Shown: piece after piece, positions 24,666 through 26,609 of the stretch | How the letters are laid out: each line of letters begins with the position of its first letter | Numbering within the stretch: the first letter of the stretch is position 1 | DNA from: an uncultured Pelagibacteraceae bacterium | Lineage (GTDB): Bacteria > Pseudomonadota > Alphaproteobacteria > Pelagibacterales > Pelagibacteraceae | Length of the DNA stretch: 64,000 nt | NCBI GenBank assembly: GCA_902537555.1 | Contig: CACBBR010000001.1 | Location: 69,501-133,500, forward strand | Direction of reading: 5' to 3' | The notes under the pieces: generated by a model | What the model was told of the DNA's origin: nothing | The model's database searches: none | The model's input: only the letters and a program-made list of their open reading frames with translations | Position numbers and translations under genes: made by a program

Positions 24666-25379
24666 ATGGCTGGTCATTCTCACTGGGCAGGAATCAAACA
24701 TAAAAAAGGAAAAGCTGATAAACAAAGATCTGCAATTTTTTCAAAACTTTCCAGAGAAATTACAGTTGCTGCTAAGCTTGGAGATAAAAATCCAGACATG
24801 AATTCTAGATTAAGATCAGCAATACAAGCAGCTAGATCTGCAAATATGCCTAAAGATAATATTGAAAGAGCAATAGACAAATCATCAATAGCAACTGATA
24901 GCAATTTTGAAAATATAAGATATGAAGGTTTTGGACCAGCAAAAACAGCAATAGTAGTTAACACTTTAACTGATAACAAAAATAGAACTGCAGCAAATAT
25001 CAGAACAATCTTTCAAAAATATGGAGGTGGACTTGGCACACAAGGTTCTGCATCGCATAATTTCATTCAAAAAGGCATCATAAAAATAAGTAAAGATCAA
25101 ATGGAAGAAGAAAAAATTTTTAATCTTGCTACTGATGCTGGAGCTGATGATTGTATTTTTTATGAAGATCATTATGAAATTCAAACAAATAAAGATGAAA
25201 TATATAATATAAAAACTTTAATAGAGAAAGAAATTACAAATTTTATATCAACAGAAATTGAGTGGATTCCTCTAAATAAAATTGAATTAAATGCAGATGA
25301 TAAAGAAAAAATGATAAAATTTTTAGAAATTTTAGAAGATGATGATGATGTACAAAATGTTTTTACAAATGCTATATAA
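24666..25379 (+). CDS. yebC: YebC/PmpR family protein
   Basis: 237 residues with the unmistakable start AGHSHWAGIKHKKGKADKQR, followed by ARSANMPKDNIERAI near 57-71 and YEGFGPAKTAIVV near 87. The family was first described as DNA-binding transcriptional regulators; some members are reported to act in translation of proline stretches. It is followed by a RuvC-like gene, as in most bacteria where yebC precedes ruvC. The spacing to ruvC is 9 bp. Confidence 0.95.
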   Translation: MAGHSHWAGIKHKKGKADKQRSAIFSKLSREITVAAKLGDKNPDMNSRLRSAIQAARSANMPKDNIERAIDKSSIATDSNFENIRYEGFGPAKTAIVVNTLTDNKNRTAANIRTIFQKYGGGLGTQGSASHNFIQKGIIKISKDQMEEEKIFNLATDAGADDCIFYEDHYEIQTNKDEIYNIKTLIEKEITNFISTEIEWIPLNKIELNADDKEKMIKFLEILEDDDDVQNVFTNAI

Positions 25380-25388
25380 TTTAACTTT

Positions 25389-25877
25389 ATGCTAATCATT
25401 GGAATAGATCCTGGAATTACGGGAGCGATTTGTTTTTATGAAAATGGAGAAATAAAAGATGTCATTGACATGCCCACAATGGCATCAGGAAGTAAAAATA
25501 AAAAGCAAATTAATGGTAGTCAGATATTTAATGAAATATCCACAAGGATTAAAAACTATAACTCTGAAAATATAAATGTAATAGTTGAGCAAGTTTCTGC
25601 TATGCCTGGTCAAGGTGTTACCAGCATGTTTAATTTTGGTCAATCATTTGGTGTCATAAAAGGAATATGTGCTGCAATGCAACTACCCATTTATTTTGTA
25701 AGACCTGCCAAATGGAAAAAATACTTTGATTTAATAAATTCTCAAAAAGACTCGAGTAGAGTCAAAGCAATAGAAATGTTTCCTAAATTTTCGTCATTCT
25801 TGTCTCGTAAAAAAGACTCTAATAAAGCCGATGCCATATTAATTGCTAATTATCATCAAAATAACCGAGAAAAATAA
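25389..25877 (+). CDS. ruvC: RuvC-like Holliday junction resolvase (phage-type)
   Basis: This 162-residue RNase H-fold nuclease has the first catalytic Asp in GIDPGITG (D7), the Glu in VIVEQVSAMPGQGVTSMFNFGQS (E69), and a C-terminal NKADAILIA with the last Asp; the other usual C-terminal Asp appears to be Asn. The segments MPGQGVTSMFNFG, PAKWKKYF and LSRKKDSNKADA look like phage-encoded RuvC rather than the E. coli type. It lies in the normal ruvC slot after yebC, but no ruvA or ruvB follows; tolQ is next. It probably resolves branched DNA, perhaps without RuvAB. Confidence 0.8.
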   Translation: MLIIGIDPGITGAICFYENGEIKDVIDMPTMASGSKNKKQINGSQIFNEISTRIKNYNSENINVIVEQVSAMPGQGVTSMFNFGQSFGVIKGICAAMQLPIYFVRPAKWKKYFDLINSQKDSSRVKAIEMFPKFSSFLSRKKDSNKADAILIANYHQNNREK

Positions 25878-25934
25878 ACTAAAGTTAACTTCATTAGTCA
25901 AATTCATGACACATTTTAGTGTGAAATCAAATAA

Positions 25935-26609
25935 ATGGATGCAGATATAACTTCACAAGCAGTTGGACTTGCAAGTAATACAGATTTTTCAATTTTAAGC
26001 TTATTTTTGAGAGCAGATATAATAGTTAAATCAGTAATTGTTATTTTAATCGCCAGTTCAATTTATTCTTGGGCAATAATTTTTGATAAAATTATTATGT
26101 TTAGAAAAATAAACAAAGAATCAGAGGATTTTGAAGAAAGATTTTGGAAGTCTAAGTCAGCTGAAACATTTTATAATAGTCTTCCAGCATCATTAGATAA
26201 TCCAATGGCTCAACTATTTAAAGATTCAATGCAAGCTGTCATGAAATCAAGATCAAAAACAAATATAAGTCAAAGACTTGAAAATATCTTAGAAGTTAAT
26301 ATCGAAAAACAAATGAATATTGTTAACAACAAATTTACTTTTCTTGCTACAGTTGGTTCAACAGCACCATTTATAGGATTATTTGGAACAGTTTGGGGAA
26401 TAATGAATTCTTTCCAATCAATTGCTATTTCAAGAAATACAAGCTTGGCTATAGTTGCCCCGGGTATTGCTGAGGCATTATTCGCAACTGCTTTAGGATT
26501 GTTAGCTGCAATACCAGCGGTAATTGCATACAATAAATTTGGCAATGACTCTAAAAAATATTCTCAAAAATTAGAAAACTTTTCCAAAAGATTTATCTCA
26601 ATAATTTAA
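25935..26609 (+). CDS. tolQ: Tol-Pal system protein TolQ
   Basis: TolQ forms the inner-membrane proton channel with TolR and energises the Tol-Pal complex during division. The 224 residues show three membrane helices (about 29-50, 133-155, 170-195), the cytoplasmic domain between the first two, and the conserved LATVGSTAPFIGLFGTVWGIMNSF and PGIAEALFATALGLLAAIPAVIAYN regions. It lies 57 bp after the RuvC-like gene and 1 bp before tolR. It is the first gene of the complete tolQRAB-pal-cpoB set. Confidence 0.95.
   Translation: MDADITSQAVGLASNTDFSILSLFLRADIIVKSVIVILIASSIYSWAIIFDKIIMFRKINKESEDFEERFWKSKSAETFYNSLPASLDNPMAQLFKDSMQAVMKSRSKTNISQRLENILEVNIEKQMNIVNNKFTFLATVGSTAPFIGLFGTVWGIMNSFQSIAISRNTSLAIVAPGIAEALFATALGLLAAIPAVIAYNKFGNDSKKYSQKLENFSKRFISII

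Follow-up and report, generated by a model that had tools for sequence, protein, structure and literature searches.

The SAR11 bacteria very probably carry out housekeeping Holliday junction resolution by means of a nuclease of RuvC fold and phage/MOC1 type that acts on its own, is encoded in the chromosomal place of ruvC-ruvA-ruvB and would be aided by RecG where branch migration is needed. The best reading of the evidence is that RuvABC was replaced in situ by one-gene phage-type resolvases, and that this happened at least twice. According to a survey by Rocha and colleagues, nearly all bacterial genomes have branch migration systems and resolvases, and prophage resolvases may fill in for absent RuvC and RecU (PMC1193525). 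A SAR11 core cluster has been named ‘Putative Holliday junction resolvase’ (PMC3686209). Judged by title or abstract start, none of the papers listed, at most 20 per search, in the open-licence literature, which covers few subscription journals, reports RuvABC loss in SAR11.

The window analyzed here is a stretch of 64,000 nucleotides from an uncultured Pelagibacteraceae bacterium. Within it, the ruv slot is bounded on the left by yebC (24666..25379, forward strand), which encodes a YebC/PmpR family regulator, and on the right by tolQ (25935..26609, forward strand). Between them lies a single resolvase gene (25389..25877, forward strand) encoding a 162-residue MOC1-like, PHROG_1770-type protein of predicted RuvC fold (P0001), which is separated from yebC by 9 bp and from tolQ by a 57-bp spacer (25878..25934). 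No second gene is present between yebC and tolQ in the window among open reading frames of at least 60 codons, and neither ruvA, ruvB nor ybgC lies between the resolvase gene and tolQ. The original prediction had described a RuvC-like gene with phage-type motifs at 25389-25934, followed by tolQ after 57 bp. Its start, its three motifs and the distance to tolQ are all confirmed in the reading frame at 25389-25877, but its end is not, since the frame stops at 25877 and the remainder is the spacer.

What would be expected between yebC and tolQ? The prediction assumed that Alphaproteobacteria usually have the order yebC-ruvC-ruvA-ruvB-(ybgC)-tolQ, and this was checked in 20 RuvB regions, hand-picked among the best RuvB matches listed for 289 sampled Alphaproteobacteria. 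All of yebC, ruvC, ruvA, ruvB and tolQ are present in 15 of these regions, in the expected order up to overlapping open frames, and for the other 5 at least one of the five genes is absent from the stretch or gave no BLAST match at 1e-5. On the basis of this order in other Alphaproteobacteria, the yebC-tolQ interval is the expected place of ruvCAB. The order yebC, resolvase gene, tolQ was observed in 21 of 21 loci (the window’s own among them), and in 15 of 15 further loci of which 10 come from other genera. Of 80 named SAR11 loci, 79 share it, and no yebC was found in the remaining one. The same gene order across so many loci argues that the arrangement is not an assembly fault of the window’s genome. 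Moreover, in 6 of the 15 further loci (L189, L190, L194, L196, L197 and L201) the resolvase gene is followed first by ybgC and then by tolQ. The persistence of ybgC in these SAR11 loci indicates that the slot derives from a yebC-ruvCAB-ybgC-tolQ locus, that ruvCAB alone was exchanged and that the loss of ybgC was a separate event. The predicted joint absence of ruvAB and ybgC is correct for this locus and is refined beyond it, such that ruvAB loss is order-wide and ybgC was lost on its own.

Profile and structure searches indicate that the 162-residue protein is not a canonical RuvC. It matches the PHROG_1770 ‘Holliday junction resolvase’ profile over residues 1-159 with an E-value of 2.7e-36, and a phmmer search of PDB sequences places plant MOC1 at the top (E 1.6e-15) and bacterial RuvC at 0.0055. 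The match to Pfam RuvC (PF02075) reaches 19 bits and stays under the cut-off of 22.2, the match to NCBIfam RuvC (NF000711) reaches 26.3 bits against a cut-off of 163, and Pfam DUF3882 is narrowly under its cut-off (21.4 vs 22.1). Relatives were found in 123 phage records, with a top identity of 42%; Planktothrix phage PaV-LD and Salmonella phage epsilon15 carry proteins 42% and 36% identical to the resolvase over 94% of the query, and one phage record bears the domain note cd22992 MOC1 on its relative. On viral contigs, the 80 best loci in each scan include relatives of up to 48% identity, and a scan with a SAR11-only alignment gave no viral relative above 48% among the best 80 loci. The viral and SAR11 scans choose loci by short conserved patterns, such that residues inside the patterns are partly conserved by design. 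The label ‘phage RuvC’ used in the prediction is thus apt in that the protein is phage-like, but the protein is nearer to MOC1 and PHROG_1770 than to phage proteins of the RuvC type, for example the one from Lactococcus phage 67.

An AlphaFold2 model of the resolvase, calculated from an input alignment of P0001 with 49 viral and 6 SAR11 rows, has a pLDDT of 91.4. The top Foldseek match is MOC1 (E 7.9e-14, TM 0.88), and the top 12 Foldseek hits are all MOC1. In VIA, the top 9 rows are likewise MOC1, with Z-scores of 21.7-23.4 and rmsd of 1.6-1.9 (the best Z being 23.4), and RuvC comes next, E. coli RuvC scoring a Z of 16.6. The modeled fold is therefore nearer to MOC1 than to RuvC. MOC1, the plant chloroplast resolvase, thus provides the closest solved structures, which are 25-31% identical to the SAR11 protein and share the RuvC fold. 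Unlike MOC1, however, the SAR11 gene is chromosomal in a free-living bacterium and sits in the ruv slot. The PHROG_1770 phage resolvases, PaV-LD and epsilon15 among them, resemble it in the full-length profile match, whereas the SAR11 copies form one supported clade, are chromosomal and adjoin yebC and tolQ.

The catalytic tetrad of NtMOC1 has been described as D116, D118, E175 and E258 (PMC7078210). Mapping by alignment to MOC1 sequences places these residues at D7, G9, E67 and D148 of the SAR11 protein, so that three of the four catalytic acids are matched at equivalent places (D7, E67 and D148), and the fourth, D118, is replaced by G9 in the SAR11 resolvase and in all 49 viral rows. An alignment of 6 SAR11 and 7 phage proteins, collected by similarity alone with no use of patterns, shows no variation at D7, G9, E67 and K120. 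D7, E67 and K120 are also invariant in the 49 viral and 81 SAR11 rows, which were selected by patterns that partly include D7, G9, E67 and Q75. Residue 148 is D in 81 of 81 SAR11 rows; of the 49 viral rows, 48 have D or E there and one has a gap. D7, E67 and D148, together with the conserved K120, are predicted from these alignments to be the catalytic residues, with the three acids holding metal and K120 assisting cutting. The same mapping aligns the base-reading D183 of MOC1 with Q75 and Y180 of MOC1 with M72, and because of these replacements the cut-site preference is expected to differ from that of MOC1.

A fundamental question is whether RuvA, RuvB and RuvC have truly been lost or have moved elsewhere in the genome. 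RuvA, RuvB, RuvC, RadA and RecG were sought across 147 genomes of the order, of which 94 belong to the Pelagibacteraceae (SAR11; f1) and 53 to a sister family (f2). RuvB was found in 0 of 147 genomes at E 1e-10, RuvA and RuvC in 0 of 147 over cut-off, and RadA/Sms in 0 of 147 at 1e-30. The RuvA search returned 14 weak hits, each covering some 30 residues. The one checked is RecR, and the other 13 align to an identical region of the RuvA model (positions 107-140). The sole PF02075 match at E 0.001 in the order, in G134, is the MOC1-like gene itself. Each search recovered its family in the named bacterial controls expected to carry it: among 14 control genomes, RuvB was found in 10, RuvA in 12, RuvC in 8 and RadA in 10, and those without a match are mostly archaea. 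As far as these searches reach, relocation of ruvAB, which the original prediction had left as an option, is excluded.

One hypothesis is that this absence is a search artefact, in which ruvA and ruvB are present but were missed because the genomes are incomplete or AT-rich or because the proteins have diverged. The window’s own genome is 84.9% complete, and the first-look filters were heuristic. Moreover, its Pfam RuvB_N search returned two hits; the one that exceeds the cut-off is DnaX and the other, which falls short of it, is FtsH, so neither is RuvB. However, the genomes that lack RuvAB matches include single-contig ones at 99-100% completeness, and the same method recovered RuvB in 267 of 289 sampled Alphaproteobacteria, several of which have genomes of 0.8-1.4 Mb, which indicates that small size does not explain the absence of RuvB. 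With the checked weak RuvA hit also accounted for, and with the gaps described below for SAR11 genomes lacking the resolvase gene, an artefact of this kind is scarcely credible.

RecG, in contrast to RuvA, RuvB and RadA, was found in the genome search, with matches in 129 of 147 genomes (90 of 94 SAR11 and 39 of 53 sister-family genomes) and no match at E 1e-30 in the other 18. The RecG matches are always under the curated cut-off (the best at 656.2 vs 659.4 bits) and span nearly the whole model in most of those listed, and for the copy in the window’s own genome the best NCBIfam models are all RecG. RecG is thus the only canonical branch-migration helicase found in the order. As a separate observation, 38 of the 39 RecG-positive sister-family genomes have a second, weaker RecG-profile match (for example G002:C2:177728-178909, reverse strand); in those listed it falls in a frame of about 790-890 residues on the opposite strand, about 1 kb from recG, and this frame is possibly a shortened Mfd.

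The MOC1-like gene is present in 87 of 94 SAR11 genomes and in 0 of 53 genomes of the sister family. One SAR11 genome (G137) has the gene in pieces with an internal stop and another (G142) holds only a fragment at a contig edge. Five of the seven SAR11 genomes without the gene were tested, and all five also lack a tolQ match, so that the missing loci are probably assembly gaps. A broader profile search of the 289 class genomes found MOC1-like copies only in the four SAR11 genomes of the sample and three others, and neither yebC nor tolQ lies within roughly 1.5 kb of the copies in these three. The resolvase gene has a dN/dS of 0.04-0.07 over 7 pairs and is under strong purifying selection.

These data bear on an alternative hypothesis in which the protein is an accessory nuclease, acting for example on phage or replication intermediates, and junctions are left to a YqgF-like enzyme or to RecG with a topoisomerase. 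Viral resolvases are described as typically more promiscuous (PMC3864405), and YqgF has been put forward as a stand-in in genomes that lack RuvC and RecU; however, the same source notes that YqgF co-occurs with RuvC or RecU in most genomes and that no resolvase activity had been shown for it at the time (PMC1193525). An accessory role also fits poorly with a gene that is found in nearly all SAR11 genomes, in one place each and, in almost every locus read, with yebC and tolQ as its neighbors, with the purifying selection acting on it, and with a sister-family slot that is filled by another predicted resolvase rather than left empty. We therefore regard an accessory nuclease as improbable and favor a housekeeping role for the MOC1-like protein.

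The slot of the sister family is occupied by a gene of about 125 codons, of the PDDEXK_15 type and Hjc-like by profile, which was found in 43 of 53 sister-family genomes and in 0 of 94 SAR11 genomes and is flanked by yebC and tolQ in 8 of 8 sister-family loci read. Examples are L048:4169-4549 (reverse strand), L049:5353-5736 (forward strand), L050:4559-4930 (reverse strand) and L051:5301-5681 (forward strand). The MOC1-like gene and this gene are thus mutually exclusive between the two families. Its products match Pfam PDDEXK_15 (PF24608) with 31.2-33.8 bits, over the cut-off of 27, Hjc (PF01870) with 12.8-17.3 bits, under the cut-off of 21.1, and the PHROG_244 ‘RusA-like Holliday junction resolvase’ profile with E-values of 2.7e-21 to 8.2e-20. 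The protein is 48% identical to the resolvase of Roseobacter phage CRP-810, only 2 phage records being matched, and 145 confirmed relatives are present on viral metagenome contigs. A profile comparison of it with the MOC1-like protein gave no similarity, and a single sister-family protein compared with the PDB by sequence gave nothing of weight. A PDB search with A3 returned designed proteins only, with no stretch passing alone, and was set aside as compositional noise. The sister-family gene is predicted to encode a phage-like resolvase of the PD-(D/E)XK type that is unrelated to the MOC1-like gene.

A third slot gene, of 97-122 codons, was found in three genomes without RuvB, namely G171, G360 and G280 of families f27 and f122 (L075:3783-4151 and L076:3880-4206, both on the reverse strand, and L077:5295-5588 on the forward strand). 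It matches the PHROG_2002 ‘Holliday junction resolvase’ profile (E 5.1e-7 to 2.5e-10) and has no Pfam match of weight. Only two phage records were matched, and 39 relatives on viral contigs are 68-83% identical; in three of the viral relatives (78-80% identical) the third-type gene lies just upstream of an open reading frame of 471-473 codons, which PHROG identifies as a terminase large subunit in the one tested, and the others look alike. A modest model of a viral relative (pLDDT 73.2) has archaeal Hjc 1gef as its best hit, with a Foldseek E-value of 5.1e-3 and a Z of 6.7 at an rmsd of 3.8 over 85 residues, and since unrelated nucleases score at Z 4-6, the likeness to Hjc is only suggestive. 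An hhalign comparison of the sister-family gene with the third gene gave a weak match (probability 37%, E 3.5e-4), and PHROG_2002 and PHROG_244 cross-match between them. The two genes may therefore be distant relatives, and because of this weak match two folds, not three, are counted as certain. As judged from profiles, the ruv slot is occupied in different lineages by single genes for phage-type resolvases, which belong to three families and two folds.

Are the viral relatives of these genes simply host DNA? Across the 39, 80 and 80 viral loci, tblastn of the available stretch found no yebC, tolQ, tolR, ruvA or ruvB, and for this reason the loci do not look like host DNA from the slot. In the wider class sample, 22 genomes lack RuvB, 16 of which were listed outside SAR11, and tolQ loci were read in 7 of these. 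Besides the three genomes that carry the third gene, G215 has a RuvC-like reading frame on a 5.6-kb contig that includes a run of N, and G260, G311 and G232 have no yebC in the stretches read around tolQ. Nine other RuvB-less genomes gave no tolQ match or a partial, weak one (G185, G290 and G370 of family f41, G324 and G399 of family f92, and G246, G237, G182 and G348), and these nine are all at least 90% complete.

The phylogeny of the SAR11 resolvases was examined with a quick tree of 87 rows and a careful tree of 62 of those rows. L042 (more than 260 residues) and 42 of 80 viral rows that are at least 75% identical to a kept row were left out of both, and L058, L059, L040, 13 SAR11 rows and 9 RuvC rows were additionally left out of the 62-row tree; the RuvC rows were drawn from 14 of the 20 RuvB regions. 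The SAR11 copies form one clade (support 97 with 87 rows and 100/90 with 62 rows) and RuvC forms another (100 and 100/100, respectively). Under the model used, the AU test rejects a grouping of the SAR11 resolvases with RuvC of Alphaproteobacteria (p 1.9e-6 for 62 rows and 0.0035 for 87 rows). This result is in line with the proposal in the original prediction that a phage-like resolvase replaced the host enzyme and that the branch-migration genes were lost: the protein does not group within ordinary alphaproteobacterial RuvC, and no normal ruvAB set was found elsewhere in the genomes searched.

These observations can be set against the possibility that the gene is the original alphaproteobacterial ruvC, which diverged rapidly in place after ruvAB was lost. 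The slot is identical to that of ruvC, the overall fold is shared with E. coli RuvC, and both the Pfam and NCBIfam RuvC models give weak sub-threshold matches. However, PHROG_1770 and MOC1 match far better, the grouping with alphaproteobacterial RuvC is rejected, and the presence of an unrelated nuclease-type gene in the slot of the sister family indicates that the slot changes its occupant. Divergence in place is therefore very unlikely, and replacement by a phage-type resolvase is the preferred reading.

An additional question is the direction in which the gene moved. In the 62-row tree, SAR11 joins four viral rows at 98/91. The AU test, however, does not reject placement of all RuvC on the SAR11 stem (p 0.351 with 62 rows and 0.718 with 87 rows), and with 87 rows the tree constrained in this way is 13 log units better, so that the trees do not decide whether the SAR11 clade lies inside the phage radiation or is sister to it. 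Such an attachment of RuvC at the base of the SAR11 clade would be compatible with replacement as proposed but with transfer in the opposite sense, from a SAR11-like cell to phages. Such a transfer seems unlikely, given that chromosomal copies occur in so few of the 289 class genomes, that the viral relatives are many and diverse, and that the slot genes of other families have viral relatives too. We infer that transfer occurred from phage to host, and this phage origin is based on the family distribution and on the parallel with the other slot genes rather than on the trees.

How would such an enzyme work without its usual partners? In the proposed mechanism, RuvABC was lost and the ruvC-ruvA-ruvB place was taken by a one-gene phage-type resolvase, a dimer of which would bind and cut RecA-made junctions directly, with neither a RuvAB motor nor a RuvABC resolvasome. 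We infer the nuclease activity, the dimerization and the partnership with RecG, as well as the acquisition from phage, from the evidence described above. Chloroplasts are not known to have RuvAB. MOC1 also serves a compartment of bacterial descent (PMC7078210). In comparison with E. coli RuvABC, the SAR11 gene lies at the ruvC position of the alphaproteobacterial locus and its task is presumably the same, but no RuvA or RuvB was found in SAR11 and its nuclease is not of alphaproteobacterial RuvC descent. Firmicute RecU is a known non-orthologous replacement of RuvC; however, RecU acts with RuvAB and rarely adjoins their genes (PMC1193525), whereas in SAR11 RuvAB were not found and their place is taken.

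A further parallel is provided by the rus suppressors of E. coli, in which a single phage-type resolvase substitutes for RuvABC, the comparison being one of function only. RusA suppression of ruv mutants depends on RecG. In SAR11, RecG would provide branch migration where it is needed, as it probably does with RusA in E. coli ruv mutants. In a report on rus-1 and rus-2, activation of prophage RusA restored the recovery of recombinants and raised the UV resistance of priB ruv cells (PMC3533792). In contrast to these suppressors, the SAR11 state is apparently natural and order-wide, involves other nuclease families and is located in the ruv slot.

Taken beyond SAR11, the evidence makes it fairly probable that the yebC-tolQ interval is a replacement slot, in which streamlined marine Alphaproteobacteria swapped RuvABC for phage-type resolvases at least two and perhaps three times and now rely for recombination on just RecG and a phage enzyme. 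Repeated swaps at a single site would provide material for studying how a core machine is replaced, and would link housekeeping recombination in bacteria to phage enzymes and to chloroplast MOC1. SAR11 bacteria are very abundant in the ocean and are reported to recombine often, yet neither RuvABC nor RadA was found in the sampled order, and for this reason SAR11 offers a natural test of the need for a dedicated branch-migration motor. If the replacement is as we propose, some of the most abundant and reportedly most recombining cells in the ocean would finish the process using only RecG and an enzyme of phage type.
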